DNA from: Lepisosteus oculatus
Lineage: Eukaryota > Chordata > Actinopteri > Semionotiformes > Lepisosteidae
Reading direction: 5' to 3'
NCBI RefSeq assembly: GCF_040954835.1
Contig: NC_090700.1
Location: forward strand, 20,007,501 to 20,071,500
Length of the DNA: 64,000 bases
The notes under the pieces were generated by a model. That model was given only the letters and a program-made list of their open reading frames with translations, searched no databases and was not told where the DNA came from. Positions 15,791 through 50,326 of this stretch are shown piece after piece. A program made the translations under genes and the position numbers. Position 1 is the first letter of the stretch, and the number at the start of each line of letters is the position of its first letter.

Positions 15791-16330
15791 CATAATTCAT
15801 AGTGAAGCACAGGGGAAACTCAAGAGTTCAAGAGTCCAACATCAGTGGAACAGATGTTGTTGCACAGAATAATAAAATCCAAGTGGAAGATAAACTCTCT
15901 CTCAGATGGACCAGTCTGATGTGTTGGTCCTGCTCTGGTGTGGTCACTCGAGGGCGACCGGATCTTGGACAGTCATCTGTCCTGCCAGTCTGCTGAAACC
16001 TTCTCTGCAGTCGGGACTCAGTGGAGTGGCTTACTCCATAGTGTGTGGCAACGCTGGCACATGACATGCCTGCCTGCAGCATGCCAATGGCCCTGTCCCT
16101 TCCTCTTGGTAACATTCGAGGCATTATGGAATGCGCAGAAAACTAAGTGTGGCCTTTTTCTTGCAGTGACCTAAGCTTTGACCTAAGGCCTTTTTAAAGG
16201 TGACCTGACCAGGCATTGTTCCACCTGGACCTCGTTGGATAAAAGTGCCCATAACGAGCTTTCGTGTGATTGGCAAGATGCAATGCCTCACTGCACAAGT
16301 TGCATTGCTGGTGAGAAGGCTTAAAACAAA
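15790..16330 (-). pseudogene. Tc1-like transposase N-terminus, truncated
   Basis: On the minus strand from 16124 the frame begins MPRMLPRGRDRAIGMLQAGM and continues with a SVATHYGVSHSTESRLQRRF helix-turn-helix and a GRPRVTTPEQDQHIRLVHLR linker. This is the N-terminal DNA-binding part of a Tc1-family transposase, about 90 residues of an expected 340 or so. Its layout (GRPR AT-hook-like motif, then TP.QD..IRL.HLR) is of a different subfamily from the elements at 3440 and 63529. No catalytic domain follows, so it cannot be active. Element boundaries are approximate; I did not locate terminal repeats. Confidence 0.7.
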
Positions 16331-16570: not shown

Positions 16571-17973
16571 CAGTGGTTCTCAAACTGTGGTACGCGTACC
16601 GGCAGTGGTACGTGGCGTGCTGGCTGGTGGTACGCCAAATGACCCTGGAATTGTGTTGTGTGCGCTGAAAAAATCGGGACGGGTTTTCATATTTTGTACT
16701 TTTATACGTGTCGAATAAGCAGCCTACGTACTACGATACAGTGCGCGCTAATACTTCAGTGGACACAAGAGATACTCTGTAATTCTATACCACTCTATAG
16801 GAATGCGTGCTACGGACGCAAGTGACCAATTGTATTTAAAAAAGCTACTGTATCTCCAGCAAATAGGGAGAAAGGAGAATGTGCGTGATTTTGGAACAAT
16901 GCCAACGTTGTAAACACAGGAATGCACAGAAATGCGTGCTACGAACGCTGGTAATCTTGTGAGCACAGGAAAGCTGGAAAAATAACAGAAAAATATTTAA
17001 GAACTGTTCTAAGTTAATTTGAGAAAAATACACCGAGCGTCTCTGTGTTTCTCTCCCATGCGCATGAAATAAATACTTAAAATAAACACTGAAATAAAAA
17101 CGGAAACGTGGAAAAATGCACACTTGCGGATTGCTAAAGCAGGTAAGCCCCACACTATTATGTGTGGAGAAAAAGCTGCTGAACAGCTCGACCTGCTGCC
17201 CTCCCCCGAAAGACACAGTTATTCATAGAATTATTGAAATGAAGGATTATATCAAAAGTATGCTGACAGCGCGCGTCAAGATGAGCAGATGTTTTTCACT
17301 ACAATTAGATGAGTCTGTAGTTGATTTGGCCAATTTGCTCGTTTACGTTACATACGAGTTTGAGGGTACGTCCCGTGAGGACTTTCTGTTCTGTAAGCCG
17401 CTACCAACAGGAACTACAGGAGAGCACGTATTTCAGCTTCTGAATGAATTTATCGGAGAGAATGGCATCGACTGGATAAAATGTGTTGGAGTTTGTACAG
17501 ACGGTGCTAGAGCAATGACAAGCCGACACAGCGGTGTAGTTGCACGAATTAGAGAGGTTGCTCCAGAAATTAATGGTTTCATTGCAACATCCACCGCGAG
17601 ACCTTTGCCGTCCAGAAAATGCCTGACGATTTAAAATCTGTTAGACTGTTGTGAATTGTATCAAGGCTCGAAAAATTAATTCACATCTGCTTTGCTCAAC
17701 TAAACAGGCTCACCCCTCTCACTGAAATGGTGCTTTTTTATTTTTATGTGTTTTTTTTTTCTGTAAAATACTTTGAGAAGCCACATTTTAATATATCAAA
17801 AAGTTTATTATTATAATATTTATTATATGTATGTGTGAGTGTGTGTGCATATGCGCTCATGTTGGTCAATGATAATTTCTGGGGTTCCTATGAGATGATG
17901 ACTTGTAGGTGGTACTTGGAAGCTTTGGTTGGATTAGGGGTGGTACTTGGTCCAAAAAGTTTGAGAACCACTG
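16571..17973 (+). mobile_element. Non-autonomous hAT (Charlie-like) transposon with intact ends
   Basis: The 1403-bp element begins CAGTGGTTCTCAAACT and ends with its exact reverse complement, AGTTTGAGAACCACTG. It is flanked by a perfect 8-bp target duplication, TAGTAATC (16563-16570 and 17974-17981). Sixteen-base ends of this form and 8-bp duplications are diagnostic of hAT elements. Inside lies a partial transposase frame (17116-17634). The rest of the transposase and the catalytic glutamate region are missing, so it could move only with help from another copy. Confidence 0.9.
17116..17634 (+). pseudogene. hAT transposase fragment (ZBED5/SCAND3-like)
   Basis: The 172-codon frame holds FSLQLDES, then VYVTYEFEGTSREDFLFCKP, then GIDWIKCVGVCTDGARAMTS and HSGVVARIREVAPE. 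These are hallmark segments of the RNase-H-like catalytic domain of hAT transposases and their host-adopted relatives (ZBED5, SCAND3, GTF2IRD2 C-terminus). The aspartates in QLDES and CTDGAR correspond to the first two catalytic acids. Homology stops just past VAPEINGF, before the insertion domain and final catalytic glutamate, and the frame ends in unrelated sequence. The N-terminal BED zinc finger is also missing. It is a fragment inside the element, not a host gene. Confidence 0.8.
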
Positions 17974-19647: not shown

Positions 19648-20224
19648 AAGCAAATACCAAGACTGTTTCTGAAAAACAGTCATTCAAATCCAAACATTCT
19701 AAATACAGAACATTATATTGCTATTTTTTTCACAAGTTTATTTACTCTTTCTGGATTTTACTCTTTTTGCAATTACTGTACTTCCAGAAAATCAGAAGCA
19801 GATATTTTCCGGAAGATAAATGGCATTCTTGAAAGAATTAATGTTGGCCACTTTATATGTATCTTACCTATATAGTTCACCTAAGGTTATGGCTACAATG
19901 CCCTCCAGATTTTATACCTCCAAGGAGACGGGAACAAAAAAATGTCTTAGAATGATTTATAGATTGGACTGTCATCCTGTATTCTGCACTACATATAATA
20001 AAATGTTATTTTTTCACAAAATAATGAAAAGTATTGAGTTGATTATATCATTTCTAAAGTATTTACTTAGCCTTACATAACAAAACGCAGTTGCAGCACT
20101 AAGTAAATAAATTATTGGTTTTGTAGTGATTCTAAACAGGAAACATGCAAAAAAAATGTTTTTATAAACAACTTCAATATTTTGTTTTTCATAACAAATG
20201 AAATAGAGACATTTGTGCTCCAAT
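19648..20224 (+). repeat. Tandem duplication, copy 1 (577 bp)
   Basis: This 577-bp unit is repeated immediately downstream with five substitutions and no indel that I can find. AAG occurs at 19648-19650, 20225-20227 and 20802-20804, a 3-bp microhomology at the breakpoints. Each copy carries an 86-codon open frame (19820-20080 and 20397-20657), probably by chance. Confidence 0.92.
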
Positions 20225-20801
20225 AAGCAAATACCAAGACTGTTTCTGAAAAACAGTCATTCAAATCCAAGCATTCTAAATACAGAACATTATACTGCTA
20301 TTTTTTTCACAAGTTTATTTACTCTTTCTGGATTTTACTCTTTTTGCAATTACTGTACTTCCAGAAAATCAGAAGCAGATATTTTCCGGAAGATAAATGG
20401 CATTCTTGAAAGAATTAATGTTGGCCACTTTATATGTATCTTACCTATATAGTTCACCTAAGGTTATGGCTACAATGCCCTCCAGATTGTATACCTCCAA
20501 GGAGACGGGAACAAAAAAATGTCTTAGAATGATTTATAGATTGGACTGTCATCCTGTATTCTGCACTACATATAATAAAATGTTATTTTTTCACAAAATA
20601 ATGAAAAGTATTGAGCTGATTATATCATTTCTAAAGTATTTACTTAGCCTTACATAACAAAACGCAGTTGCAGCACTAAGTAAATAAATTATTGGTTTTG
20701 TAGTGATTCTAAACAGGAAACATGCAAAAAAAATGTTTTTATAAACAACTTCAATATTTTGTTTTTCATTACAAATGAAATAGAGACATTTGTGCTCCAA
20801 T
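20225..20801 (+). repeat. Tandem duplication, copy 2 (577 bp)
   Basis: Head-to-tail copy of 19648-20224. Differences seen by eye: A/G in CAARCATTC, T/C in TATAYTG, T/G in GATTKTATA, T/C in GAGYTGAT and A/T in CATWAC. About 0.9% divergence suggests a recent duplication or an assembly artefact. Confidence 0.92.
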
Positions 20802-20879
20802 AAGGAAGCACAAAACTTAATTTCCACATTTAAAACACCAGTTCTGAATGGTAGGGAAGAAGGAAGCTTCACGTAAACA

Positions 20880-20945
20880 ATGTTACAAATGAGAGGATGC
20901 CATTTGAACTGGGACATCTAGGCCAAAATTCAGATACTCGGAGAA
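20880..20945 (-). mobile_element. LINE 3'-tail fragment
   Basis: GTTACAAATGAGAGGATGCC followed by ATTTGAACTGGGACATCTAG matches the tail that begins the LINE relics at 6415 and 53870, in the same minus orientation. Confidence 0.4.
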
Positions 20946-21910
20946 GGCAGCCTCATAATGGTAGAAAAGGCAAAGATATTAATGTGTTTCATTAAAAAAG
21001 TCATGGGATTGGTCCAAACAACACAAATTCAAGACCAGCATAAACACGTTAAAGGAAGAGATATACAGTAAGTCAGGCAAACCTTTGTCAGTTCAGAAAG
21101 CACGCAGCATGACCTTGAATATCCTTTCCAGCACTTACAGTAACTAAAAAAAGACCAGTTGCCACAAGGTTGTCATTGGAAGGCTAAAAAAAAACTTTTT
21201 GTCAACTACCGTAAATAAAAGCTAAGGTCGGAAAGTAAGTCAAAATGAACCTGAAATACCTGGGAAATTGTACTGTATGTTGGAACTACTGTACGAAACC
21301 TTCACGTATAATGGTCTGATGAGGCCAAATTTAACATGATGGGGAGTAGATGGTGGGAGTTTGTTCTGACACAAGACATTAATATTTTATTGCAGAAAGA
21401 CTCACAGCCAGCTGTGGTTCTGAGGTTGCAGATTAGGGGTGGTGTCATAGATATCAGAACAGAATAAATTGTGAGCCTTGCAGTACCATCTGAAAATCTC
21501 TAAATAGAACAGAATTCATTAAAAATAATTAATGGTTATACCCCTATATGACCCTTCATACAAACTTGTTTTCAGTACCCAACAGAGCTTAAAAGGTCTA
21601 TGTAAATTAGACTCTGAAATGGCATGTTTAAACACAATTTAAATCAACCCGAAATGTTATGGTATAATACTCAAGATCTTTTTTATAAAAATCTGAGCAG
21701 TCTAGCACCTAGTGAAAACATTATTATTGTCATAATATTTTTTAAAAGAAGAACACTTTAAACATCACATCTCAGGCTCATAACTAAGTAATGAAACATA
21801 AACAATATGTTCAAACACGTGAGAAAAAAAGGCAAGCACTGATTATCCTTTTCAGCAACCCGTTGCACTGTCTTGCAGAAGTACAGACTGCAGTGAATGA
21901 GGCTGTTCAC
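20946..21910. other. Gene-free stretch upstream of TRAT1
   Basis: No gene recognised. Near 21310 the phrase AATGGTCTGATGAGGCCAAA resembles a segment often present in Tc1-like transposase genes, so part of this may be a badly decayed element. Confidence 0.3.
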
Positions 21911-21911
21911 C

Positions 21912-21972
21912 ACGTTTCCTGTTTGTGACAGCAAAAATACAAGAGAGGGAGTAAAAATAGACCATATAAAGT
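21912..21972 (+). promoter_or_regulatory. Candidate TRAT1 core promoter (TATA and ETS-like site)
   Basis: TATAAA lies at 21965-21970, about 106 bases before the proposed start codon. TTTCCTGT (reverse of an ETS GGAA core) lies near 21917-21924. ETS factors drive many T-cell genes, so the pairing is sensible. Such short motifs occur often by chance, and no transcript evidence is available here. Confidence 0.3.
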
Positions 21973-22070
21973 ACAGGTAGCAAGGCTTTGCAGGAATGTA
22001 ACAACTCTGGACAGGATCACAGACATTACAGATTCTAACCTTTGTGCCATTTGTGGAATCCTCATCAAAG

Positions 22071-22077
22071 ATGGCAG
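22071..22077 (+). CDS. TRAT1: TRAT1 coding exon 1 (start codon, 7 coding bases)
   Basis: ATGGCAG is followed at 22078 by a strong donor, GTAAGC. It leaves one base (phase 1), which the next exon needs: G plus AA gives Glu3 and the N-terminus MAEPC. The start is inferred from phase fit, the donor, and a TATA box about 106 bases upstream. Confidence 0.6.
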
Positions 22078-25000
22078 GTAAGCTTTGAAACAATCATTTG
22101 TTTTAGACAATATTCATACATACTGTAGGTTGAACTTTACTCTCTCCAGTCTTTCTCTTTCAATATTCCACATATACTAAATAAAGATAATGGTGTTTTT
22201 AAGTAGATATATTTTGGAATCATATTTTTCTCCCTGAAAGAAGAAACCATCAATCATGCAATTTAAAAAGTGGAGCTATTTCATGCTATATTAAGGATAA
22301 TATCTTTTTGAGGACGAGACTCGTCTTTAGTGAAAGTGTATTGTGTTATTTTTACTTTTTGAATTTTTGTGACCTGTAATCAAAAGAGTGTACACTGTAT
22401 TAGTATATATACAATATATTACCTTATGTTTAACAATACTTTGTACATTTAAATAACAGAGAAAATTATAAGGCAAGTGCTCAATTTCTTTTACAACAGT
22501 TGCAGAATGTGGTCTTATGCCCTCAGAACCTGATAAGGCTTCTTTGTGAATGAGACTCTAGAATATTGCCATTGTAAAATAGCAGCTGTTCATTAAATAC
22601 TCTGAGCTAGATAAAACAAATTTGCAACACTTCAATTCGCAATATTCACAAGAAACTTTAAACAAATTTGAGCCTTTATGTAATTACTACTGAACATCTA
22701 TTTTTTTTAAAAAAGCACAACAATAGAATATGTGCTGTTAATACAGTGCTGGTCAAGAAACAGCAACATGATAAGTCAATTTTTTAATCATTGTTGGAAG
22801 ATCTTACATCGATAAATAAGTGGAATGTATTCTTTTTTTACTTGAACTGGCTTCGTTTCAAATGAAACTCGACATTCTAAACGTTTGTGGGATTTCAGTA
22901 CTGAATTTAAATTGACACTTTCTTTTGGATAATACAAAGAAAATTTCAAATGGAGTTGAACAGGTGTGCAAAAGTAATTTGTGTCTTAGAACTCTGCATT
23001 TGGGTGCAATGTTTGTTTTGAAATACTGTTACTCAAACATTCATTTTAATCAATATACTGCCAAACCTAATTATGGTTAAAATATTATTGGCTTTGAAAA
23101 ATATACAAAACATGTTAAGTTGTGCTTCGGTGCAGAATAATTCATGTTTTAACACAGCAGGGTTTATTAATTTGTCCGAGTTAACTAAAACTGAATTGTA
23201 CAAGACTTCACTTGCCAACGAACAGTGGTTGAAAAGATCGGTCTTAAGCTTGTTTATGGTGTACATTCTGAACAAAAAAGCTTGATCTATACCTGCATCT
23301 TCAAAGTTCATTATATGATATTGTGCGTTACATAATAAGAGTAACGACAAGAACCAAGAGACAGACTGGTATAGTGGTTAAGGGCCCTCCGGACTATAAG
23401 GGCCCAGGGGTTCAGCTTCTAGATGGGAAGACTGCTGCCGTTTAAGCAAGGTATGTTACTCAACACGCCAATATTAAAGGGCATCGAAATATGTGTGTTT
23501 ATCACTTATGGAGGTCTCAGACAATTTAGTAACAATAAAGAACCCACTTTGGGTATAAGAAACCAGCACTCTATAACCTCTTCAACAGTTGGCAAATAAC
23601 AGCAAAAACAACATTTAGCTCAACTGATATTTAATTTGAGGTTTCCTGTAGCTAACTACTGCTTGGATCAGTTTGGGGGGGAATACCTGCATATCAGTTC
23701 TGCTATGCCACTGAACACTTTCTTTGTTGTGTCACTCACAAGGCATTAAAAACTAATCTTCAGTTTGTTACCGCGCTGCTAATCAAAGGGTATAATTTTC
23801 CATTACAGTTTCATTTTGGAAAACCACGAACTTCTAATATGAATTTACAGTGCCAGCTGAAATCGTAGTTAGAAATTTAGGAGTTAAGTAAACTTTGACT
23901 ACATCTTTCATGTTTAATCAGTATATTATCTCGGCTTGTTTCTACCGTAGTGCATATACAATATAGTACATCGGTAATGGTCAAATACTAAAATCTTCAG
24001 ATTATATGTAGGAAACTGACATATTAATAGCTAACAATGAAAGAATCAAATGAAAAGGCTTTACTTATTTTCAAGAGATTGAAAAAATGATGTGCATAAT
24101 ATATGCAGGACTTTATATTCAATGACGTTTGTTTTGTTAGCACTTTTTCAGCTAAACTGAGCTGTCAGTTAGGAGACAATGTATAATATCCTTCCATCTA
24201 TCTTCTAACCACTTCGTCCAATTCAGGGTTGTGGGGGAACTGCAGCCTACAGTATCTTGACAAGCAAAGGGCACAAGGTGGGGTACACCCTGGACAAGAC
24301 ACCAGTCCATTGCAAGGCACACACAGGGACAAGTGTTACTGTATACATACAGTAAATACGAGCATGTACACTCTGAGGTAGTGTAACATTTTCATTAAAA
24401 AATGTAGTCAAGCAAAAATAAAACAACTAAACTTCTAAAACTGCCAAAACAAAATCTCTGAGATTATCCATTTCCATTTTTGGTTATTTCTCTCAGATTA
24501 CTCAATTAAGAAAAGTGAAATTAAGATGGCACATACTGTATAACAAGATCTGCCCTTTCCAGCTCAGTTTATTACTATTGCTTGACTTGAATGGAGAATT
24601 GTGACCTGACCACATACTTAAGTAATCCCACATGTTTATATAATGTTCAACTAATTATTTAATTAATGTTTTGACATCTCAGTCTTTGCTCTGTGTTTAT
24701 TGTTTGTCGCACTGGCTTTTTTACTCGTTGTCTCTATGTCACCAACAATCAACAATAAGCACATGAGAATTTATTTACCTTTCTGACTCCATATTTTGGA
24801 AGCATTTACTTAAAAACTACAGCAAAGGCTAAAATAAACTGCATTATTGTAACAACAGTAGAATCACCACTGGTACTGTATATATAGAAACAAATGGCAA
24901 GCCGTCTGATATTAATAAGGCCATAATCAAGAAAAGAAACTCACTAGACCCAATGTTTAATTGCATTTAACATTTATAATGATTTTAAATAAAGAGAAAC

Positions 25001-28000
25001 CCTGCTACTCTGGGTATGCTGATAAGAGTTTTGGTTTAGTCTTTAGGAAATTTGAATTTTCTAGTTCTTCAAGCTTTGAATACTGTACATCACTTGACTC
25101 AAAAACAAGTTACTTTGTTTTCAGGTTTAGCTAGTGTAATTATCACTTCAATTCATTTTGTAAATATGTTTTTAAATATTTTTGGAAAGTGTAGACACAT
25201 CCTTCTAGGACTATGCTTATTTCTTTAAAGTGTATCATACATTCTAAGTAGCTACAAAGTCTCTCATTGAGGAAAGAGATTGCAATTATTAACCATTGTC
25301 AATTCAGCATGGACAAGACCACCAACACAATGTTCTCAGAACAAAGACTCCAATTCATACATTTTTTTTAATAGTGTTTTATAGTAATTTAGTGAAACTC
25401 ACAACAGAACGTCTCACAGTAAGAGGTGATCCTATTTTAAAATGAAAATCACAAAATAAATGTAAATTTCCATCTCTCTGCCTCACGTGAAAGAGTGAAA
25501 ATCACCTTTTACACTCAAGACTGTTCACTATGGTGTGTCTTTAACATCCAAAATAAATTGTACAGCAATTTGTTAATGTCTTTTCAATAAAGATCAAACC
25601 CGAGATGAAACTCGAGAAAAAGACAAAGACCTCACTAACAAAACCACATAGGCATAATTATTTAGTATTAATAATAAATTTGGAATATTTTTTAAGAATT
25701 GTAGGTGCAATTATTTTTTAAAGACACATTTTGGTGCCCGGATATATAGCTGGGTTTGATGAAACAATGTGAACAAAACCCCTCAGTGTCCCTACCCGAG
25801 ATTTTAACGTCTCTACGAACCTTGCTACTTGCTACCACCCAAAAAAACAACAGGTGGAAGAACTTCCAGATCTGATGTCTTAAGCTCCATAGCACAGTAG
25901 CTCAGCTGCAGCTTTGGGATCCTTAGGGATGAAGAGTGCTTTGCAATGAATATTATTAATAACAAATTATTATCTAGAGCCTACAACAAATAGCTACAAA
26001 GAGTCACCCATGTTAACGCAACAGAAAAGCTGAGAACCGGTAAGCACACCTACTGTAAATAGGTTTTTAAGAAATATGAGCTACTCAAGGAAATACAATG
26101 ATGTGGAATAGTGGTCAAGACTCTGTAAACCAGATCATAACTTTAAATCTTAGGTGGACAATTGCTTCACTGTTTCCCACCCCCAAACAAGAAACCTCAA
26201 TCACATTGCTCTAGTAAATCTCCTGCTGTATAATATGGTCTCCAGGTCATCGCTGTAAACGAGATGAATGCCTCCTCACCTACAGACATGGCAGTACAGA
26301 CACTGTTAGACTAGTGTTTCTACTAGCATTCTGTTAGCTCTTTTACAAACTATTTTCTCACTTAAAAACAGTATTCATAGTTACATACTGCATGCTTGAT
26401 CCCCATGATGCATATTCTAGGAATAAACTATTATAAGTGTTAGAATTACAGTGGATTCAATTAGGCTGTATTTTGAGGAGGTGTGAAATAAATCCTTAAG
26501 AGGAGAATGGGTTATAAACCGCTCCTTAAAAGGCTGCTTACCTAGAGATTCTGGAATTAATAAAAAAGCAATAGCCAAAGTCAAGGATCTTCAGTGCTAA
26601 ACTTTGTTCCATAATATCGCTTATGGTCTACACATATTGAATTAAACCTTTCATATTTCTGTATGTTTTTTGTTTTCTTACTTAGAACCCTGCAGTTCTG
26701 CCTGGTTGGGTCTGGCAATGACGGCAATAGCACTGCTCATATCTGTTTGTTTAAACATAGTCTTTTGCTTGAGGCAAAGGAAATGTGAGCAAGGTGGGTG
26801 CAATTTTAATATACCTTTAAAAAGTAAATGTGGTAACTGCATTTTACACAGTAAAATCAATTTCTACAGTGACATTAGTGAATGACTTACCTAACGTTTT
26901 TCTTACAGTATTACTGATTTTTAAGCTTCACAAACTAGAAAAACTCACCCTTATGGTGACATTATGAAACAAAAAACAAGACAAACATTTTCTTCAAATA
27001 ACATGATGAGAAATTTACTCATTTCAGAATTTATTTTTGTACTTCATGTTAGGACACCTAAGATACAAAACCTCATACAAAATGTTTCTGGCATTTTTCA
27101 AGTCAATGTATGTACTTGCATGTCTTGTGAAACAGATATTTGATCTGAATACAGATAATCTTCTTTTTAACACATCTCAAGAGCTGTCTTTTTTGTTTAG
27201 TAAAACAAAGTAAAATTGTTTAGTCATGTAATATACTGGAACCACCATTTTTTTTATTTTCTAGGTTTCTCACACAAAGCTGCCATTGACACATATTTGT
27301 TAATGAGAGCAGAAGATGCTCAGTATTCCATCAGAATCTAATTTGTAATCCTATTCTTCTAAAACACAGTGATTACCCAAAACTTGGATTGTTTGTATTG
27401 TCCTCACACTTAATATGTAAATGAGGCCAGATCATAACTACAGTAATTCAAATGAACTATCATCTGAAGGTGATCATCGGTCAGAAACCTGTCCAAAAGT
27501 TTTATGTTTGGGCTTTTCAATCCACGTGGTGACATTTTGAACACTGTATAAAGAACACTTAAAACATTTAAACATTTATACATTAAAAAAATCTATTTTG
27601 CAATCTTCTTGTTGACTGAACACAGTAGTTTCAGTTTTATAACCACATCTTTAAATTCAGGATCGCAGGGTCCTAGACAGGACCAGTCCATCACAGGAAG
27701 ACAGACACAAACGCAGACACACAATGAATTAATCCTTAACAGTTTTATTAAAGGGTTCAAAGCCCTGCAGTGGCATGTAATGTAAACACTAAGGTCAACT
27801 ACTCCTGTGTTAAACTTAGACCTTATTGCAACATAATGTTTAACTGAGCAGTTTTACTATGAAAAGGAGTGGTAAAGAGTTATAATTGTATTACTGTCAG
27901 ATCCATGATTTTGTATAATAAACCTAACTTTTGTATTATTGTATTCATTTTGCAGTGCCTCAGCAAATAATATATCCAGACTATGCTCCAAGGTATGAGA

Positions 28001-31000
28001 TGTGTTATATTGTCTTATATTGTCTTTTAAAAACGTTTGAGGATCAGCCTTTTTATGTTGCTTTAAAGTATTGTAAAGGGTTTACAGGTCAAACAAAAAA
28101 TAATTGTTTTAAACTTAATAATGAAGATTAATGAAAACAAAACTATTCAGTATGTACATTATTATACCTACTGATGTTTTGTAATATAAACAAGATTTTT
28201 TTAAACTGAATTTTAATTTAAATCTAATGTCGCACATTATAATTTACACTATAATGCAGAGTGAAATTCCACTTAAACTTGTTGCAGGATTATATCATTG
28301 CATATTAAAATTATTATTTAAATGTTAATGGATGGTATGTTATAGAATTATGTCTGAAACTCATGTATACAAGGAACAACTGAAAGCTCAAGAAGAAACT
28401 GTTTTAATCTCAATAGGTTACATTACTTCAAATGCTTGCCTAAGATGGCCAGTCATCGTTTAAAATGAAAGTTACATAACATTTTGTTGTAAAGAGAATA
28501 ACCTGTGAAATATTTCTAAGCCTAATCAGATCTCAAATTTTCTTATCAGTACAGAAGCTGCTAAAGAGCAGTTAAACCACAGTTTTGTCCTAGAACAACT
28601 GAGACAATGAGACTTTAATAGAATTAAAGAAGTGCTGTAGACCAAGTACTCAACGACAAGGCACATGCAAACCAATTTATTATGTACTACAATTACACAA
28701 ATAATATATACAATAATCTAGACTACAATGCATTACACTGAACAAATCCTATTACTCCATCACTGCTTCAAAGTGAAAACAAAAGTTTACAAAGTGGCAG
28801 GCACCTTTTAGTGTTGCCACTGAGCAGGGTTGTACAAAATTACAAATGGGTTTAGCTTGAGAATTTGTTACATGTTCCAAAAAGTGCAAAATGGAGTGAC
28901 CTTTCTGTTTATCCGTTGGTTTCCTGTAGTTATAGGGAGGAAGAGCAAATTGATGAAAATCCAATATATGGGAATATAAATCAAGACTTTGAAGGTAAGT
29001 TCCTTTATTATCGTGTTGCCTTTGGTGCGTGCTGTCGATTACTTTATAAAGATAACACTTTTAACAATTTATTCTTGTGCATACCCTTTTTGGATGCTCT
29101 GCTCTGTAAAACTAAAATGTTGCTAGTGAGAAAAGCAAAGTCCCTTATGTCGGCATTGACATAGATTTAGATTTGTGGACTCCATTAATCTGCAGATTTT
29201 CCTAAAAAAATGTTAGCTCTCATAAGTATTTAAAAGTTACAAAGGGAAGGATTTGTCACTGACAAACTTACAATTGTAAAACACCAGGCTCAGGCACTCT
29301 AATAATAATGGGTAGAATGTCAATGTCAAAGTGAAGTAGATTAAGGTAGAAGAACTAAAAGCTTAAATAAACACTAAAAAGGCAATTCATTATTTCTTTT
29401 TGGGCACACAGCAAGTGTAGGAATGTCTCCAAAATGACCTGCCTACACAAAATTGTTTGCTCTTTTCAGTGAACTACATTTTTTCTGTTTCTAATAAAAC
29501 AAAAATAGATTGCTAGCCATTCTGTGACTTCAGTGCTTCCTCGGAGCTGTAGAAAACTGAAGAAAGCAGGTCTGCATCAGCGGCTTATCTAACATTTTAA
29601 AATGTCAAATAACTTTTTATGATCTGCAACAACAAATGACCACAGCTCAGTGGTACAAAGACCCATGACACAAATCATTTTAACAGAAACTGTACTTAAG
29701 TACTTGCATTTTGGACATTAAAAAAAATCAGATGACATCAACTTTCATATAAATCTGATTTGTACTGCATTGAATATATGGACTAAATGAGCTGAACCAC
29801 CTTTTTTCTTGTTTTCTTGATATCAACCCAATATTAATGGTTTCTTTGCTGTTCCTAAGCACATGAGGACTATGACTGTGAAGAGGAATGCTATGAACAG
29901 ATGAAAGCTCCTAGAAAACAACAAACTGGAAAAAAGGTATTTTGAAATATAAAAAATCTGCTACAAGTAGAACAAATGATTGGAAGTTATGCTCGAGACA
30001 GAAAAGGACTGCAGGTGCAGATGGTACACAGCAGAGACAGCAATCTCATTAAAAATGATTATTTTCACCTTTAAAGACAATTCACAAATCTGAAAGACAA
30101 ACTGGAAAATCAGAGAACAGCTTTTACGGTTGTTCTAGTTCAAACATTTTCAGAAGTAAACTGAATAAAGTGAGAACATTTTTTAAGAGCATGACACTTT
30201 AGAATAACTCTGAGGGTAATAAACGTGAATTATTTTTGTTGTTTTTTTTCTTTCAAAGCAGACAAGCATGTTCACATCAAAAATACAGTTCAGTAGCACA
30301 GTGTGTTTTCAATTCTTTTGACGTGTGCAGATGGTGGAATTCGTCATTTTCGCTGAAGCATAAATGAACAAATGAATTCAGTAAGAGTCTGTAAACTCAG
30401 AAAACAGAAAAGGCGACATTATTTTGCTAATCTGTTGCTACAACAATTAACATCTTAACGTTTACAAACATGGTCATTAAAAATATAGCTGAGAATAGAA
30501 AGGTTTGCAGTCACCAATATTTTTTAACATGCAGCATTGCCGAACAAAGACACAATATGTTACCTTCAGTATTTTACAGGACTGTATCTACTGTATAGTA
30601 TTGTCTTTCAATGGTGGGGCTTGCAATCGTCACTTCAATAAATAAAACTTACAATTTTTAAAGAGCAAGACGTTTATATGACTCTTTGGATATTCAAACA
30701 TTATTGTAAATAGGACTCTTTTGTAAGTTGCATGTTTGTTTGATATAGGAAACTGCATGTGAAGATATTGAAGCTTTCTTTAAAAAAAAGAACACAAAAA
30801 GGATTTTGTACTGTTTTATATTAAGGACTTCATTAGCTGATTCTCTTCTAGATTTTCAAGACAATGTTTGTTGTCTTTTAAAGGTTCAGTTGCCAGTTAA
30901 ACAATTAATTGTGTGTTGGCACAGAATCTGTCTTTAAATTTACACGTTCATTCCTGAGAAAGAGCCAATTGTTTGAAATGGCGGCACAGTCACCATTATG

Positions 31001-32661
31001 GTAAATTTACCATACATTTAATTACTCCAGCAGTTTTATTTCATTACAATATTTCTTCTAGTGACTTAAAAGCCTAAGCAAATATACAAAAAAAACAAAC
31101 TTTCAAATACTGCATACTGTATCTGCATGCTACAAATAGCACATACTGTATTTCCTACAGGCCTTAGACAGTAATGATTTCAAGATGTGCGGATTTCTTT
31201 CATTAATAACGTCCGCTGTGGCCTGTCATATAGAATTACAGTTTATAGAAGAGTTAGAATTTAGAGCACATTGAGACATACAGTGAATAGTTTTTAAATT
31301 TATATATATATATTTTGGATGTATTAAAATATACACCATTCCTCATTTAGTAGAACATCAATTAAATAACCTTAATATGTAATTAATTTATATATATTTA
31401 TAATAATATTGGTTTAAGGATTAGCAGGTTAATAAGCTTGGCACTCAGTATCAATGTGTTATACACAAAAACTATGCAAAAGCAATGCCATTTATGTACT
31501 ATGTACTAACCTCCACAAAAACGAAAACTGAACTGGGAAAAATTCCTGTGATGTGGGGGTACTCCATTTACTGCTGATACCCACATACATTTGAGTCAAA
31601 TCAATTCTAGCTTTAATAAAAGGTTCTGAGCAAATTAAAGAAGATTATATACAAACATTATGAGTGTCAATACTGCATCTGTTTTCCTTCTAGTCGGGGA
31701 ATGTGGCAGGAAATTTGGAATAAAATATTTACTCATGTGAAGTCAAGTCAAAAGAATGGGTTTTTTGCATAAAGGTGTAAATATTTAAGTAAACAGCATA
31801 ACAGTTCTACTGATCTACACAGAAACGTAAAGAAATTCGTGGTTTTTAAGAAAAAGCATAGTAAATTGCTTTCTTACAAGAACATAAGTAAACTATCTTC
31901 CTTATAGTAAATCTTACTTCTGGCAACAGGCAATCTTCATAATATACAGTCAGCCCCAGTCCTCGAAGTACTGTTGGTGCCTGTACTTCACTCCACATCT
32001 CATATTGAACTACTTGCCTGAATGAAAAGATCTCGCAGGCCATTCAGTCGGTAATTGCAGAGTACCTATGAACTCTGTAGGACTCTGGAGTTACCCATCG
32101 CTAGAAGACTTTTCAGCTGCGATAAAGCCCAGCAGTGTTTAAAAAAAACTCTCTCACACAATTAATCTGCACTGACTGCATGTGCTGTATGATGCACCTT
32201 TTAACCTGCTCTGTTTAACAAATATTCTGTTAACTTAAATATTTAAGTTAACAGAAGCATTATGTAGAATTAGACTGTCGTTTGAATTCATGTTTAAGCT
32301 GGGGGTGTGGAATGAGCGGAATACATTCCAAAGCTTCCAATCGCTGATCTAGATGCATCAATCCTGTTTCTCTAAACAGCCGGCCGCAGAGCCCAGCATG
32401 TGCTACGCCTCTTTGGATCTGACGGTGGATAAGAAAAAGAGGAAAAAACACAAGAACAGACAGGCCGCCCAGGATTTTCTGGAAGTAGAAACCGAACAAA
32501 CTCTACCATCGAGATCCAGCAGCACCATGGTCTCTAGAAACAGCATCTACCTGAACAGTCAGCAGCTGACAGAGGAAAGCGAGGAGGCCATTCACGAGGA
32601 CCCTGCCATGATCTTCAGCAAGTTCAACAAGAGCCAGTCGATACCTCAAGACAGTATGTAG
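22071..32661 (+). CDS. TRAT1: T-cell receptor-associated transmembrane adaptor 1 (TRIM)
   Basis: Six coding exons (22071-22077, 26686-26793, 27956-27992, 28930-28994, 29860-29936, 32380-32661) join into a 191-residue protein; human TRAT1 has 186. In known TRAT1 the product is a disulfide-linked transmembrane dimer that associates with the TCR-CD3 zeta complex and is phosphorylated by Src-family kinases. Visible here: a short extracellular end with Cys5 (the probable dimer cysteine), one membrane span at about residues 8-31, a basic stop-transfer RQRK, and tyrosine motifs Y64 (IYGNI), Y84 (YEQM, the PI3-kinase p85 type YxxM) and Y107 (CYASLD). A polybasic run KKKRKKHKNR follows at 116-125, and HEDPAMIF matches the human HDDPIRLF near the C-terminus. 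All splice junctions are GT-AG and all phases agree. GUCA1C lies downstream in convergent orientation, as in human. The tiny first exon is the least certain part. Confidence 0.88.
23363..23500 (+). repeat. tRNA-derived SINE
   Basis: GACTGGTATAGTGGTTAAGG (box A region) is followed about 30 bases later by GGGGTTCAGCTTCTAG (box B, 23407-23422) and then by a SINE-like body with TTTAAGCAAGGTATGTTACT. The inner promoter is recognisable, but the arms do not pair as a real tRNA. Confidence 0.55.
24192..24332 (-). repeat. SINE body fragment
   Basis: The plus-strand text (CCATCTATCTTCTAACCACT, then GGGTACACCCTGGACAAGAC, then ACCAGTCCATTGCAAGGCAC) is the tail half of the SINE seen more fully at 43975-44338 and 47903-48172. 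The tRNA head is missing. Confidence 0.6.
26686..26793 (+). CDS. TRAT1: TRAT1 coding exon 2 (transmembrane segment)
   Basis: The acceptor is TTTTCTTACTTAG and the donor is CAAG|GTGGGT. It encodes Cys5, the hydrophobic span (WLGLAMTAIALLISVCLNIV) and the RQRK basic stop. Exon 2 carries the membrane anchor of the adaptor. Confidence 0.85.
27660..27722 (-). repeat. SINE body fragment in TRAT1 intron 2
   Basis: GATCGCAGGGTCC and ACCAGTCCATCACAGGAAGA match the conserved body of the SINE family at 43975-44338, only about 60 bases long. Confidence 0.4.
27956..27992 (+). CDS. TRAT1: TRAT1 coding exon 3 (37 bases)
   Basis: The acceptor is CATTTTGCAG and the donor is CCAAG|GTATGA. It enters in phase 1 and leaves in phase 2, encoding VPQQIIYPDYAP with Tyr45 and Tyr48. 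Confidence 0.8.
28930..28994 (+). CDS. TRAT1: TRAT1 coding exon 4 (IYGNI motif)
   Basis: The acceptor is GTTTCCTGTAG and the donor is GAAG|GTAAGT (near consensus). It encodes YREEEQIDENPIYGNINQDF, which aligns with the human segment ending EDTPIYGNLDD. Tyr64 sits in YGN, a YxN motif of the GRB2 SH2-binding type. Confidence 0.88.
29860..29936 (+). CDS. TRAT1: TRAT1 coding exon 5 (YEQM motif)
   Basis: The acceptor is CTGTTCCTAAG and the donor is AAAAAG|GTATTT. It encodes HEDYDCEEECYEQMKAPRK, matching human ENCYEQMKARPEK. YEQM (Tyr84) is the YxxM site that recruits the p85 subunit of PI3-kinase in mammalian TRAT1. Confidence 0.9.
32225..32256. repeat. Perfect 32-bp palindrome in TRAT1 intron 5
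   Basis: TTCTGTTAACTTAAAT is followed directly by its exact reverse complement with no spacer. It lies 124 bases upstream of the last TRAT1 exon. Confidence 0.95.
32380..32661 (+). CDS. TRAT1: TRAT1 terminal coding exon 6
   Basis: The acceptor is TTTCTCTAAACAG, phase 0. The exon encodes 93 residues ending DSM, with TAG at 32659-32661. It includes CYASLDLTVDKKKRKK (human CYASLDHSVKGKRRK), a serine-rich middle, a YLNS motif at Tyr155, and HEDPAMIF, matching the human C-terminal HDDPIRLF. Composition is more GC-rich than the surrounding introns, as expected for coding sequence. Confidence 0.9.
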   Translation, partial: PAAEPSMCYASLDLTVDKKKRKKHKNRQAAQDFLEVETEQTLPSRSSSTMVSRNSIYLNSQQLTEESEEAIHEDPAMIFSKFNKSQSIPQDSM

Positions 32662-35308
32662 CTGGACCAGCCCAGGATTGTTTGTTTTTTTTAGTTCTGT
32701 GAACCAGGCATTCACTCTGCATTATTGTATGAATAGTGTTCCGTTTTTTCAGTGTTCTTTTTTTCACGGGACATCCCTTTGAGCCTAACTTAACGATTCT
32801 GATTTTCCAGTCAAGAACACTAATACCTGATCAAATATGAGAGAAGGAAGCTGCTACACACTTCCACATCTCAGCCACTGAGAATTTTGACAGACAGTCA
32901 CTGTGGCACAATGTACAGGCAACGCTGATTATTAATCCCAGTGCCTGGTAAATCAGCATTCAGTTTCCCAATTGATGTGTGTGTATGCATATGGTTGCGC
33001 ATGTACATGTATCTCCCAACAATATTTTTTCAGCACACTGGACCTGCAGGTAATTTACAATATTCACGACTATAATATTTAAATACTTCTGATTAATAAC
33101 CATTAAAAAACGTGCTACAGTGTACCCCAATTAAAACTTTTTGCTTAATTAGTTTAATTTTGGGTCTAGTGAAGACACAATGACTCCTAGTTGCCTTTTA
33201 AAGGCAGGTATGTCAATGTAAAATAAGCATTGAAAATGTGTAACACAAGATTTTGTGTGTATATAGTATATTTGCAAAAAAAATCAGTTTTCCTATTTTA
33301 AGGCACGTCAGAGGTAACATTTTGAAATGACAAAATTTTATCTTTATTAATAAGAACAATCTAAAACAGAAGCTTAGAATCCCAGAATGCACTGATTAGG
33401 CAAAAGAGTGCCCTAGTCCATTTGTATTAGAGGACAATTACCTAGAAGAAGTTTGATCGAAATCTTCAGAATTATGAAAGGAACAGCCAAAGTTGTTCTA
33501 ACAGCTAACAATATAAAAGCAGATGAATGTCCAAGTTAACAGAAGTAGATCCGGAATTAATACAGATTTCAGTTTTCAGCAGAGTGGTTGATGCTTGCAC
33601 TTGGTTGCCAAGCTATGACACTTACTCTAGAACAGTGCAATATGACAAGAATGTTTTAAGTCATGTTAGTGTTACTAAGCGAGTTCTGAGTGACAGTATT
33701 CAGGCTGCTCATGTGTAATAATAGGTAACCGACGCTCACTGGGATTGGTAACTGACACTCACAGTGGCAATTTCAAGGTGGAAAACAGATCAAATACCAG
33801 AAGAAGGAAGCCTGACCTCAAGGTTTTCAGAACATCAAAAAACATCACACATAGCATGCAACACGAGACTGGTGCAGCAACAGTAATCCTAAGTATTTGC
33901 AGCTGCTTGCTCAAAGAGAAAGGTTCCTGTCGGAGAACAAAAGAGAAGAGAAGTGCAGTACTAAGTATGCAAATACCGCAGTATTGACTTTTTTGTTATT
34001 TTTGCTACACATTCTCCTGTGATGAGACCATGGCCATCTGATATAGGCTTTTATCGGTAAAAGATGTATTTAAATGTATTCTTCTAGAAAACTTATCTTC
34101 CACTGCAGAAGTAGACGAGAAGATTTACAGATGAGTACTTTTTTGCCTGAATATAGAAATACATGCACTAAAAGGACAGAACATTATTCTACTTCAAACT
34201 TTTATGAAAGTCAAGATATTGAGAAAAGTAACTGAAGTCAAACACCAAAATAACACCATACCAAGCCTAAAATTAATTTGCAGTGATGAAATATTAGTAA
34301 CACACCCACCATTTCCATGTCTTACTTAATGTTCCCATTTCCAAACAAGGACCAGAGTTATCATAGTTAACTTCTAAATAATACAATAGTGGAGACAACT
34401 GCAAACATGAAGACAAAATGCACTGTTTAGTTCCTGGGCTTTAAAGGTTATAAGGTATAAAGGTTTTTCGCAGTATTAAATGTTCTTTTGAGTGGATTAT
34501 TTCCCAGTGTAAACTGCTGAAATCTACTCAAAAGACAGACTTATATACTTTCTTTTATACTTTGTTAACTGTCCCTCAAGTTAATCATTTCTCAAAAATT
34601 CCAAAATATTTCACTTTCAAATGAACATAACCCCCAAGCAAGACTTAACCGACTGAGAATATGCCACCCACTTGTGTTTCTGTGTATGAGTCATGGAGTC
34701 ATTAAAATTATCTTTTTCCCCCCAACTGGATTGAACAGCAACCCCCAAAAGTATGCACTAACCACTCTGTTTGGATAAAAACAGTTCAAAAACAGAATTG
34801 TGTAACTAATTTTCCAGAATAGAACTGAACTGACCACAACGCCTCAGGCTCATCTGACACACTAGTACAACCGCACTGCTTTTCAAACCATACAGTACAG
34901 CAGGAAAATATTAGTAAACATGCTTGTGTTATCTTCTAAAACTCAACAGATTATGCAGTCCTGGATTTGAAAAAAATGTACAGGCTCTTAAAACTCAATA
35001 TTATTGTGAGTCTGACTGTAAAATTAGCAAAAGATTAGCAAAAGATTTCCAAAAGATTTCCAAAACACTGCCAGGTGACTGGAGCACTATGCCTTTATGC
35101 TAATGTGTTAAGGAACACAGTGTTCACTGTTAGAAGTGGATTTGATATTTTTAATGCTGGAAATGTAACTTTGCAGGGCGGATAATACTGTATGACCAAC
35201 AGACAATGACTGAATAACTCCTGGTGTAAACAAAGTAAGAAGCTAAAAAAATACAATTATCTATCATCAGAAAGTTGCTAATTCCTAGTAAGGGATGCCT
35301 ACACCTAT

Positions 35309-42630: not shown

Positions 42631-42761
42631 TCAGACGCTGTTCCTCCGCCCCTTGATGATGACTTTTAGGACATGGGAGAGGTCCAGGGTTTTTGTAATT
42701 GTTTCCATGATAACCGGGTGCTCTTTCGCTCCAGCAATGAACTCCTCCAGTGTCAGCTCCC
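42631..42761 (-). CDS. GUCA1C: GUCA1C coding exon 4
   Basis: The acceptor is ATTCTCTAG, entering in phase 1. It encodes [20 protein letters not shown], the end of the fourth EF-hand, and the C-terminal helix to GRRNSV and the stop. The short C-terminus is typical of fish GCAP3; the human protein has a longer tail. Confidence 0.9.
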
Positions 42762-45700
42762 CTAGAGAATGAAAAAAGGACAAACTACAGACAACGCATT
42801 CCTATATTTTATTCTTAAGACTACTGAATCTCTAAATAATGGTACAGCAACTGTTGTGAAGACACAGTGACATAAAAGGTAACTATTGGCACCTGGGAGT
42901 AATAAAAAAAAACATACTCCTGCCATAGTTCATGCAGCTGTACCAGTCCAACATCATCTTTAAAACACTGGATAAAATACAGAGTTTCAGTTGAGCAAAT
43001 TTCCACCAGCTATATCAGGCTTCTGTGTTGTACTGTACTTTCTGTCTGGGCAGTGTCATTGACTTTTCCAGGGCAGAGTCTGGGACAGAAGTATGTGATT
43101 CACCAAGAAAAAAGCAGCATGAAAATAAGCCTCCTTCTGATAACAGTGACACGGTCACTTAAAGTTCTGATTTTACCAGTTAGCTAGCTGACCAGTTAAT
43201 GACAAGGTTTACCAGCGTAACTAATTCTAATTTTTATTTACTGTGGCCTCTTAAACCTTTACTTTTAAGTCACTTACCATCGCCGTTCACATCTATAGTG
43301 TCAAATATCAGGGTTGTGATTTCCTCTGGGGATATGTCATAGTGTCGATTGATGTCTTGTACGGCCTGAAATTGAACAATATGGTATGATGAACTGATCA
43401 AAATACATTTGAACATGTGAAAATACATTGAATACATACATTTAAATAGATTATTTTATTTTAGAAGAATGGGTGTCACAGTGGGTGGTAATTAGCATTA
43501 CTGACTCGCAGCTCTTGGGCTCTAGATCCTTATGGTTTAGTAAAGCTTCAGCAGAAAACAAAAGTGTCACCATGTGAAAACTGTGCCACTGCAGTAAAGG
43601 CCTGGATGAGCAGCAGAAGGATTAGGCATACCAAAATTAAAAATGAAAAAAACATATGTGTTATTATGATTATTACTTTTCTTTATTTCCTGCAAAATGT
43701 TTCTGGTTAAAAAACAAGCCAAAGCAGACAGTACAACCCATCTATTCACTTTAAATTAGTTTGTAAACAGTATGGATTATGAGACATGTTTGTTTTGGCA
43801 ATAATGATATTTGGCTTGTTCTGAGCAATAATTACAAGTATGCTCTTTATATTTGATTAGATCAAACTAGTCTCTTTGAATGAAAGGTACAGTATACAGG
43901 CCCACTGAGGGCAGTTCTCAGTATTTTTATTTTTAACAACACCTTCAACAATTTGGAGAATAGCTCCAAATTGACTCCATTTTCTAACTGCTTCATTCAA
44001 TTCAGGGTCACAGGGCAGCCAGAGCTTAGCTGTAGCTGGCAAGCAACTGGTACAAGGCAGGGTACACCCTGGGTGGGATGGCAGTCCATTGAAGTGTAAC
44101 CCCTCTTAACGTCAAAAGTTTTTTAGATACACATTCATACCAGGGCCAATTTTCCCAGAAGCCAATTAACCTACCAGTTAGTCGTTGGAGTGTGGGAAGG
44201 AACTGGAGCCCCCGAAGGTAAAGGAGACGCATGAATACAAGGCCAAATTTATGTAGATAGCACCAAGGTATGGAACTAAACCCAGGGCACAAGCACTGCG
44301 AGGCAGCAATCTTAACCTCTGTCTCACTGTGCCAACATATGTGATAGAAAAATTTGACCGGTTCTTCAATAACTAAAGCAAAAAAAAAAACATTTCTTGG
44401 TTTTTCAAGATCTCACCAACATGGAAGAAGACTAGAGTATAAACAAGTATCAATAAAACTACAGTCTTGGGCTGCAATACGAATATTTTCTTAACTTTCA
44501 TTGAATTCTAGTCAATAGGATGATAGGATCTTAAATGGTTCAGATGCTCAAACTATCATGCACTGGACATCCAGCAGCATCAGACTGCACTGTGCTGCAT
44601 TGCTACTGTATGCATGCAGGCGAGGTGGTGATCAATTTTCATCACACTGGAAAAATCAAATGATTAAAGTATTATCTAACCTATTACAGTGCATTCCAAA
44701 TCAGAATTGATTTAAAATATCTGCACATGAAGACACTGTGTGAGTGTTGAGGTTGTTAACTGTCCAGAAAAACAATGAAGAAGAGGTATTTTCCAATTGC
44801 TCACCTTAAATATCGTTTGAAGTTCCTCTCGGTCTATTTTGCCATTTCCATCAGCATCGTAGAGCTTGAAATACCACTTTAATTTCTGGTTGATTTCTCC
44901 TTTTAGCACTAAGCTGATCGCAGCAATGTATTCCACAAAGTCTATAAAGCCGTCCTGAAATGAAAGAAAAAGTTTCTAACATTTTCTGAAATATTAAAAT
45001 CAAATTGTAAAAAAAAGGAGTGTGACCTGACCAGCTTGAGAAAACAAGTAGTAGGCCTGCCAAAGTAAAACTTAGCAGCTTGGGAAAGATTGTATTAGAG
45101 GCCATTGAAACCTGACAGCTGTTTGCTCTTCAGGATCAAGAGAAGGAATTAATTAAAAAATGAAATCACATTAAAAATGCAGTTACAAATATTGTGATGT
45201 GGACACTCGTGACTCAACTTAGTTAATGTGGTATGAAAATGCTTGTAAAAATTGGCCCTTAATGAAAATGTTTCCTTTCTCAATACCCATTCTCTTCTGT
45301 TTACTTAGATTATTATACTTAAAGCACTTTGCTTAAACACTGTGTACGCATAGTCCCAACAAAATATTTGTGAGCCATTTAAATCAGTCCACATTTGCTT
45401 ATATTTTAAACAAAAAAAGGAAATTAGATGTTCATGGAAATGTAAAGATATCTTGATTAAATTTGGATTTTTTAATGCACAAACTGACCCAACAGTAAAT
45501 ATCCTTGTGTGAATATGTACTGTACTGTACAGTATGTCATCCTTCAGATTCAGTAACTGGTGGAACCTCCTTGAATAGCAATGACTTTAACTAGACATTT
45601 CCTATAATGGTCTTTCACATTTTTCCTTTTATGAATTTTAGCTCATTATTCCTTCCAACTTTAACTTGGACAATCCAAAATGCATTCTACTGTAGATCTG

Positions 45701-48638
45701 TGTGTATACTTAAGATCATTGTGTGGCTGAATGAATGAATGAATGGCCTGACATTCTCCTCCAGAATTTGCTGATACAAAGCAGAATTTGTAGTCATCCA
45801 GGTCTTGAAGCAGCAAAGCAGCCCCAAACCATTATACTACAATTATGACTACAACTGACAGATGGAACAAATTTAATCTGTTGGAAGGTAGTGTTTGGTT
45901 TTCACCACACAAAATATTTCTCCTTTTTATCCAGTAGTCTTGTAAATTGTCCAAGTGCTCGCTATCGAATTTGAGATAAGCAGCAATGTTCTTTTTTAAA
46001 GATCAATGGTTTTCTTCTTAGCTAGCCTCTAATGTTCTTGTTTGGGATATTTCCTGATGATGGAGGCCTGAACACAAACATTAGCAACAGTGAGAAAGGC
46101 TTGAAGATGCAGGCCTGACATTGCTTAAGATTAAGATGGGTTTATCTTCCATTATGTGTATAAACCTAACATTTGGAGAATTTAGCTTATATATAATAAG
46201 GCAATAATAGAAAATATAGAAGCAAAACATTTTAATGAAACAATTGCATTTATAGATTCTTTAGTGCTGTTTACACAAATTCCAACAGTTTTGACCTGCA
46301 ATCTCCTTTATCTCCTCAGAGATTACCATGTCCTCATTTCTCCTCTCCTGTCTGACACTTTCATTAGGCTTTTCTATTTAAAACTCCCTTGACCATTACC
46401 ATTGTGTCATTAAATACACAATGTTTTAACAAAACCGTGTACTTGAAACCTGAGGGTTTCTGTGGTTTGTAGCATGTGTGCTACATGTTTATGCTAATTA
46501 AAGCAGTTAGGCAGGTTGCTGTCTAAAGTAGATAAGATATTTCCAATAACAACTTGAAATATATAATTGTCATCAAGACTAGGTGGACAACCAGAGAACC
46601 CTGAAATATTGTAAGAACAGAAGAACAGGCACAAACCATTCAAACATTTCCTAATGTTTTCAGAAACAAATACAACAGAGGATCTATTTTTATTTATATT
46701 ATTGCTATCTCTGCATCAAAATAAATCATAAATAATCACAGCTACACATTCTCAAGTCTTCAGGTTTTCTGTTTTCTTTACCGTTTACTGATTTCACCCA
46801 AATCTCTAAAGCTCTCTAGTCACATTGTTGAAGCTGAAAGCATGAAATCCCTAATTGTAAAAAAACGTGGAAATGACAGGTGGCAACACTATTTTTAAAA
46901 TGCAGTGAAAAAAATACTTTGCAGGATGCACAGGCAGGAGACACTGTAAAAGCATAGTGTTTTCCTATTACCTTTCACCCTAAATTTAACAAACTACAAA
47001 CAAGGGGCACATATTTTGAAAGGACTGCATTGGTTTCACCACTATTCTGAATTTCATATCAAGGCATTCTTGATATTCAACCTTCAAAGCTTGAAGAAGA
47101 ATATTTTGTATTGCCCTGTCTTTACAACTGCTTACAGAGGAATTGTGATACTTGAACACTTACATAAACATAGTCAGAGGTATGAGTCATACCATGCAAA
47201 CTCTTACTTGTTCATAAGATGCAAGTGTAAAGATTTCCAACTCTTTTTCACCCCATCATTCCACAATTACCAAAGTTATTAAAAATCTGAGCTTCATGCT
47301 GTTACCAGTTTCATGCTGATGCTAGACAACACTAAATTGCTTTAGTCCCAGCAAACAGGTGCTGGAATTCTTACTTTATATCAACAGTATAATGACACCA
47401 CAGATTGTTTTGGCATATATTTTAATTTTCTACCTACAAAAGACAAAGCACTGTGAACTGCAATCTAAAATACTGTGAACTGCATATCTGATTTCCATCT
47501 TTCCCAGAGTGTTTTCAGTGCTCTTTGTGGGGCTCAGAATTTTATAACCATCTTTGTGCAACCAGGTCACCTAGTGTAGCCCTGCAAGGCATCTGCTGGT
47601 TTTTAATTTTTAATCCCTTGAAAATTCATCCCACTAAATCAAAATGACAAAATCTATAGTTGTGATGTATGTCAACAGCAGGCTAAAGCAGAGCTGCCAT
47701 GTCAGATCAACGGAATTTATCTAGGATGCTTTAAAATACTCAACCTGAGGGGTCACATGAGACAGGTGCCTTCTGACCTTGCATTTTGCTCCAGGTGGAA
47801 TGCCGTCATGTTAAATCAGATTTGTGTCAAAAAGCTCAGTTTCCCAGGCAATCCAATTAGTACCAAACTACTCATAGCTGCTTATGGTATGAGAGAAGCT
47901 AATCCATTCATCCATTTCAAACTGCTTCATCCAATTCAGTGGCACAGGGGAGCCAGAGCCTGGCAAGCAACGGGTGCAAGGCAAGATACACCCTGGATGG
48001 GATGCCAGTCCATTACAAGGCACACACAGACACACACACTCTCACAACAGGGCCATTTTTCCAAGAACACAGAGAGCATATACAAACTCCATACAGATAG
48101 TACCCCAGGTCTGGAATTAAACCCCGCACTGTGAAGCAGCAATGCTAACCATTGTGCCACCATGCCGTGCGAGAAGCTAACCACATTTCTTTTTTTTCCT
48201 CTGCTCTTTTTCCACAGTAGAACTGGCCAATTGCATTGTCCATGTTTATAGTTTAGCGCAATTAAAATTCATTCCACACTGATGCTTCAACAGCCTGTTT
48301 GGAAATTGAAGAATCTTTCCCATCTGTCCCTAATGTTGCTGTGCTTTTCTGGAAGTCTCCTTTGGCATGTACTTCCATCTGGTTTGTCCAGTGTCCAGTA
48401 AGAAGTGGCTTGAAAGTAATGTGTGGCCGGTGATGACTCTTACCCCGTTCATGTCGAAGGTGTGGAACACCTGGTCGATGTAACTGTTTGCCTCTTCGGT
48501 CACCCCTTGCAGCCCCAGGATGGCTTTCAGCTCGTACAAGGTGATGAGACCCGACGGAGACTCCCGCATGAATTTATTGTACCAGTGGTGCATATCCACA
48601 GCGAGGATGTCATCTAGCGAAGAGCCATAGGCGCCCAT
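42631..48638 (-). CDS. GUCA1C: Guanylate cyclase-activating protein 3 (GCAP3)
   Basis: Four minus-strand exons (48638-48444, 44954-44805, 43365-43278, 42761-42631) join into 187 residues, ending TGA at 42633-42631. GCAPs are neuronal calcium sensors of photoreceptors: calcium-free, they activate retinal membrane guanylate cyclase and restore cGMP after light. The protein begins MGAYGSS, an N-myristoylation signal. EF-hand 1 is degenerate ([13 protein letters not shown], the usual non-binding GCAP form). EF2 (62-73, [12 protein letters not shown]), EF3 (98-109, [12 protein letters not shown]) and EF4 (140-151, DVNGDGELTLEE) keep all the acidic ligands. The segment [18 protein letters not shown] nearly equals human GUCA1C. 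All introns are GT-AG with agreeing phases. The GUCA1C assignment over other GCAPs rests on this similarity and on its place next to convergent TRAT1, as in human. Confidence 0.9.
43278..43365 (-). CDS. GUCA1C: GUCA1C coding exon 3
   Basis: The acceptor is ATTTCAG and the donor is GATG|GTAAGT. It encodes [20 protein letters not shown] and most of EF-hand 4 (DTIDVNGDG), leaving one base for exon 4. Confidence 0.92.
43975..44338 (-). repeat. tRNA-derived SINE, near full length
   Basis: On the minus strand it starts at about 44338 with a tRNA-like head (GGCACAGTGAGACAGAGGTT, then GCCTCGCAGTGCTTGTGCCC and GGGTTTAGTTCC, a decayed box B). The body contains CCTTCCCACACTCCAACGAC and CAGGGTGTACCCTGCCTTGT, and ends GAATGAAGCAGTTAGAAAAT. 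It lies in GUCA1C intron 2, in the same orientation as the gene. Confidence 0.65.
44805..44954 (-). CDS. GUCA1C: GUCA1C coding exon 2
   Basis: The acceptor is TTTCATTTCAG and the donor is AAG|GTGAGC. Its fifty codons complete EF-hand 2 ([19 protein letters not shown]) and hold all of EF-hand 3. Phase 0 at both ends. Confidence 0.94.
45520..46160 (-). mobile_element. Decayed Tc1-like or related DNA-transposon copy
   Basis: The plus-strand text (CTGGTGGAACCTCCTTGAAT, AATGGTCTTTCACATTTTTC, CTGACATTCTCCTCCAGAAT, AGCAGCCCCAAACCATTATA) follows in order a long repeat I know from many fish genomes, read in the direction opposite to its transposase. Stops and gaps are frequent. It lies in GUCA1C intron 1. 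A (GAAT)n microsatellite sits at about 45729-45745. Confidence 0.5.
47903..48172 (-). repeat. tRNA-derived SINE
   Basis: Same family and orientation as 43975-44338. On the minus strand GGCACAATGGTTAGCATTGC (box A region) starts near 48163 and a box-B-like GCGGGGTTTAATTCCAG follows. The body has GTGCCTTGTAATGGACTGGC and CCAGGGTGTATCTTGCCTTG. It lies in GUCA1C intron 1, about 270 bases downstream of exon 1. Confidence 0.68.
48444..48638 (-). CDS. GUCA1C: GUCA1C coding exon 1
   Basis: The start ATG is at 48638-48636, giving [20 protein letters not shown], with Gly2 available for myristoylation. The donor is AACGGG|GTAAGA. Its sixty-five codons cover the degenerate EF-hand 1 and the first half of EF-hand 2 (FDMNG). 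The frame continues past the donor but loses similarity there, confirming the splice. Confidence 0.94.
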
Positions 48639-50305: not shown

Positions 50306-50326
50306 ATAATAATTTTACATGGCTTC

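Follow-up and report, generated by a model that had tools for sequence, protein, structure and literature searches.

The window, the whole stretch of 64,000 nucleotides analysed here, carries on its plus strand a gene of six exons (22071-32661) that is very probably TRAT1, also known as TRIM; some 10 kb from it, the minus strand carries a guanylate cyclase-activating protein (GCAP) gene best read as GUCA1C. The joined TRAT1 exons amount to 576 bases and encode 191 residues plus a stop, without any internal stop codon. Start, stop and 10 of 10 splice borders are valid, every intron being GT-AG, and among the 569 GT sites of the region three of the donors rank 1, 2 and 3 and the other two rank 7 and 26. 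An earlier note, made from the letters, had claimed a six-exon, one-frame gene of 191 residues with the dimer cysteine, a membrane span, IYGN, YEQM, CYASLD and an HEDP block; such a gene does exist and all of these elements are found in its peptide (the cysteine as Cys5, the block as IHEDP). The exons, each with the evidence for it, are:

22071..22077, plus strand: TRAT1 exon 1, of which ATG GCA G is coding (strong donor; purine in position -3)
26686..26793, plus strand: TRAT1 exon 2, with Cys5, the membrane span and the start of the tail (similarity; match in the source-genome search)
27956..27992, plus strand: TRAT1 exon 3, VPQQIIYPDYAP (frame and splice signals only)
28930..28994, plus strand: TRAT1 exon 4, with the IYGN motif (similarity)
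29860..29936, plus strand: TRAT1 exon 5, with the YEQM (YxxM) motif (similarity)
32380..32661, plus strand: TRAT1 exon 6, with CYASLD, a basic stretch, the IHEDP block and the stop TAG (similarity; match in the source-genome search)

The neighbouring gene (42631-48638) joins four exons into 187 residues, and the joined peptide matches GCAPs in PDB:

48444..48638, minus strand: candidate exon 1 of GUCA1C (GCAP3)
44805..44954, minus strand: candidate exon 2 of GUCA1C
43278..43365, minus strand: candidate exon 3 of GUCA1C
42631..42761, minus strand: candidate exon 4 of GUCA1C, with the stop

Elsewhere in the window, a direct repeat of 300 bases upstream of TRAT1 (19648-19947 and 20225-20524, 99% identity, 577 bases apart) represents a local duplication. 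A transposase-like frame with a Sleeping Beauty type helix-turn-helix lies at 3457-3783 on the plus strand (E 5.4e-17) and a second helix-turn-helix frame of transposase-like character at 15831-16142 on the minus strand (best E 3.5e-06), while a 178-residue open frame at 17098-17631 (plus strand), without Pfam match, looks by eye like a piece of a hAT-type transposase. Beside GUCA1C, the minus strand of 50000-64000 holds open frames that may be exons of a gene, for instance 62788-63222 (145 residues with a Met start); 13 of the 32 minus-strand frames of at least 60 residues, in or into 50-64 kb, returned no Pfam family at cut-off, the sole weak row for the scanned frames being MRP-L47 (E 0.021). 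Searches of the window found no Rfam match at gathering scores and no tRNA.

Strength of the match and completeness of the gene model

For human TRAT1 and SIT1 the comparison used working versions of the sequences, and all scores against them given below refer to these versions. In local pairwise alignment the 191-residue peptide scores 179 against human TRAT1, the maximum of 1000 shuffles being 56, with 56 of 155 aligned residues identical and with indels around YEQM and CYASLD. The PDB sequences returned two rows for the same peptide, both at chance level (E 0.41 and 0.51). Taken exon by exon, the score against human TRAT1 is reached by 1 of 2000 shuffles for exon 2, by none for exons 4 and 5, by none for the first part of exon 6 and by 25 for its second part.

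Since the exons could have been chosen to suit the expectation of a TRAT1 gene, human TRAT1 was also aligned in spliced form to 22001-33000 under shuffled controls. The alignment scores 147, against a mean of 38 (sd 4.8, maximum 57) for 100 dinucleotide-shuffled regions and a maximum of 59 for 100 shuffled queries. The aligner was custom-made; with a lower intron penalty and no controls it had scored TRAT1 at 181 and SIT1 at 73, each alignment containing spurious introns, and the penalty was raised for the controlled run. Exons 2, 4, 5 and 6 were found, the donors of exons 4 and 5 exactly; neither exon 1 nor exon 3 was recovered and several borders were shifted. When 22 stretches of 11 kb (11 positions, both strands) were slid across the window, three plus-strand stretches, and no others, exceeded 41: 71 for exons 1 to 5, 147 for exons 2 to 6 and 100 for exon 6 alone. 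The stretch holding only exons 1 and 2 scores 41, and exon 2 is not distinct in this test, because two minus-strand stretches reach the same value.

Exons 1 and 3 bear on the possibility that the gene is a decayed TRAT1 relic, or that the model is partly stitched together from chance pieces. Both exons are short. Exon 1 has 7 coding bases and was missed by the spliced alignment, although its donor is the one that ranks 2 of 569, and a pattern scan of 20001-26680 gave two short phase-1 start exons, this exon among them. Exon 3 shows no similarity to human TRAT1 (1948 of 2000 shuffles reach its score). Its support is that splice signals, scored with working splice frequencies, place it first among 95 frame-compatible candidates, and that the reading frame is broken when it is omitted. 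A relic or a stitched model is nonetheless very unlikely, given 191 codons free of stops, 10 of 10 borders with GT or AG, donors that rank so high in the region and a spliced score above all 200 shuffled controls. As exon 3 lacks similarity and the spliced alignment missed it along with exon 1, the completeness of the gene, stated in the earlier note, is likely rather than proven, with exons 1 and 3 provisional.

TRAT1 among related adaptors

The joined peptide matches Pfam PF15330 at 4.5e-22 and 79.2 bits (cut-off 27.6). This model bears the name SIT, yet it gives 121.8 bits to human TRAT1 and 23.0 bits, less than the cut-off, to human SIT1, and thus fits TRAT1 better than SIT1. The name is one of several points that could be raised in favour of SIT1, which is the paralogue closest to TRAT1, as the identity of the fish gene. 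SIT1 shares the general plan of the window protein, including P(I/L)YGN and MCY(A/T)SL; its pairwise score of 68 (27 of 88 aligned residues identical) exceeds the maximum of 1000 shuffles (49), and similarity to it is seen in exon 4 and in the first part of exon 6, with 0 of 2000 shuffles reaching either score. In a three-sequence MAFFT alignment, where the paralogues are less sharply apart, identity is 33% to TRAT1 and 27% to SIT1. That both pairwise scores exceed their shuffles is, however, expected of paralogues, and those of SIT1 are far lower (68 against 179 pairwise, 46 against 147 spliced); neither the profile nor the pairwise, spliced and exon-wise scores place SIT1 ahead of TRAT1. Its similarity to exon 5, which holds YEQM, and to exon 2 is at chance level (929 and 302 of 2000 shuffles, respectively), human SIT1 has neither YEQM nor an IHEDP-like block, and the adjoining gene is a GCAP read as GUCA1C. 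We therefore consider SIT1 extremely unlikely.

Pfam includes models of LAX1, PAG1 and LAT. None of these was among the two families listed for the TRAT1 peptide up to E 10, namely SIT and, below cut-off, SCIMP (E 0.25), with the proviso that HMMER filters may drop weak matches. The identification as TRAT1 and not SIT1 is upheld by profile, pairwise and spliced scores, by motif order and by the GUCA1C neighbour, with no LAX1, PAG1 or LAT model listed.

Searching the source genome with TRAT1 returned five rows, four of them exons of the window gene and the fifth at chance level (E 7.46), and no second copy was found. An exon-wise PF15330 search of the same genome gave 0 matches, a blank that says nothing on absence, since the search was silent in all 14 control genomes and missed the window gene itself. 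We are confident that the gene is a TRAT1 orthologue, apparently without a second copy, and that it belongs to a ray-finned fish outside the teleosts, in all likelihood a gar.

Genomic neighbourhood and age

The expected GUCA1C neighbour is present, as GCAP1 or GCAP3 by sequence and as GCAP3 by genome layout. Among PDB sequences the window GCAP is closest to GCAP1 (222 bits) and then to GCAP3 (211 bits). TRAT1 is reported near GUCA1C in six vertebrate taxa (PMC6170504), and the mammalian gene shares this vicinity with ours; a figure legend also gives the symbols Retnl, Morc1, Guca1c, Trat1 and Dzip3 together (PMC4467842). Working sequences of human CIP2A and, in part, of MORC1 and DZIP3 were compared with the window and gave six rows, none significant (best E 1.5), so that a single syntenic neighbour is confirmed.

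A search of the source genome with the window GCAP returned 19 matches, four of which are the window gene itself. Two at C7:48543716-48549925 (58% and 71%) apparently form one gene; three at C5:36430277-36449740 (one plus-strand match at 53%, two minus-strand matches at 70% and 47%) apparently form two genes arranged tail to tail; and two at C21:6035224-6039811 (49% and 51%), which share a strand and align to the same query segment, apparently belong to two successive genes. Eight further matches, left unassigned, show 39-48% identity, and some of them outrank the C7 and C21 matches by E-value. In spotted gar, GCAP1 and GCAP2 are described as tail to tail, unlike in teleosts; their linkage group also carries GCAP3, which is unusual, a second one carries GCAP1-L, and a third has GCAP2-A and GCAP2-B arranged head to tail (PMC6170504). 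The layout in the source genome fits that of the published spotted gar and not that of teleosts, and from this match, within one gene family, GCAP3 (GUCA1C) is the best reading of the GCAP beside TRAT1. By the same token the genome is probably that of a gar or close relative, with bowfin a less likely source.

Spotted gar TRAT1 near GUCA1C has been in print since 2018 (PMC6170504), and the window gene resembles it in GUCA1C vicinity and GCAP gene layout, a likeness drawn by gene name and neighbourhood. Judged by titles, none of the papers retrieved for TRAT1 is devoted to the fish gene, and the word TRAT1 does not occur in the main text of the bowfin genome paper or of a fish immunity review. 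According to the earlier note, the gene, if real, would date the adaptor to before ray-finned and lobe-finned fishes parted. This conclusion on age is sound; the novelty that the note implied is not supported, as the published gar synteny already implied the same age (PMC6170504).

Protein features and a proposed mechanism

The fish protein has an outer cysteine followed by one span: Cys5 aligns in MAFFT with a cysteine of human TRAT1, and the best hydrophobic 19-mer covers residues 12-30 (mean hydropathy 2.48). Mammalian TRAT1 likewise has a short outer part, one cysteine and one span. The order IYGN, YEQM, CYASLD, with IH(E/D)DP near the C-terminus, is common to the fish protein and human TRAT1, the human order being taken from the working sequence; the fish protein differs in having one more tyrosine close to its end, in IYLNS. 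Its tail is expected to be disordered.

In mammals, TRIM is described as a component of the TCR complex that forms disulfide-linked homodimers, carries a YxxM motif, is phosphorylated by Src kinases and might bind p85 through that motif, and TRIM knock-out mice are reported to show no phenotype in the assays used (PMC2848047). Upon TCR stimulation of naive CD4 cells TRIM partners p110delta, and a restraining role in TCR-PI3K signalling, redundant with those of SIT and LAX, has been proposed for it (PMC7982423). By analogy, fish TRAT1 would be a membrane adaptor whose outer part is short, and its outer cysteine would link two copies of the protein. Engagement of the TCR would lead Src-family kinases to phosphorylate the tail tyrosines, phosphorylated YEQM would become a docking site for the p85 SH2 domains of PI3-kinase, and IYGN and CYASLD may dock other SH2 proteins. 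Going by its mammalian counterpart, the fish protein would dimerise, associate with the receptor, be phosphorylated, dock PI3K and mildly restrain TCR-PI3K signalling; the motifs themselves point to a protein that retains the parts needed for the TRIM mechanism and may work with TCR-CD3 and PI3K.

The known picture is unchanged, since TRAT1 of spotted gar was already on record. What is provided here is an exon-level gene model for a fast-evolving T-cell adaptor, with its YxxM site retained, in a fish that is probably a gar; the model can serve annotation and help to date the adaptor set. We would guess, with somewhat less than even confidence, that the TRAT1 module, YxxM included, has been constrained since the bony-vertebrate ancestor and that gars keep what many teleosts may have lost. 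If so, gars would be the fish in which to test the role of this adaptor.
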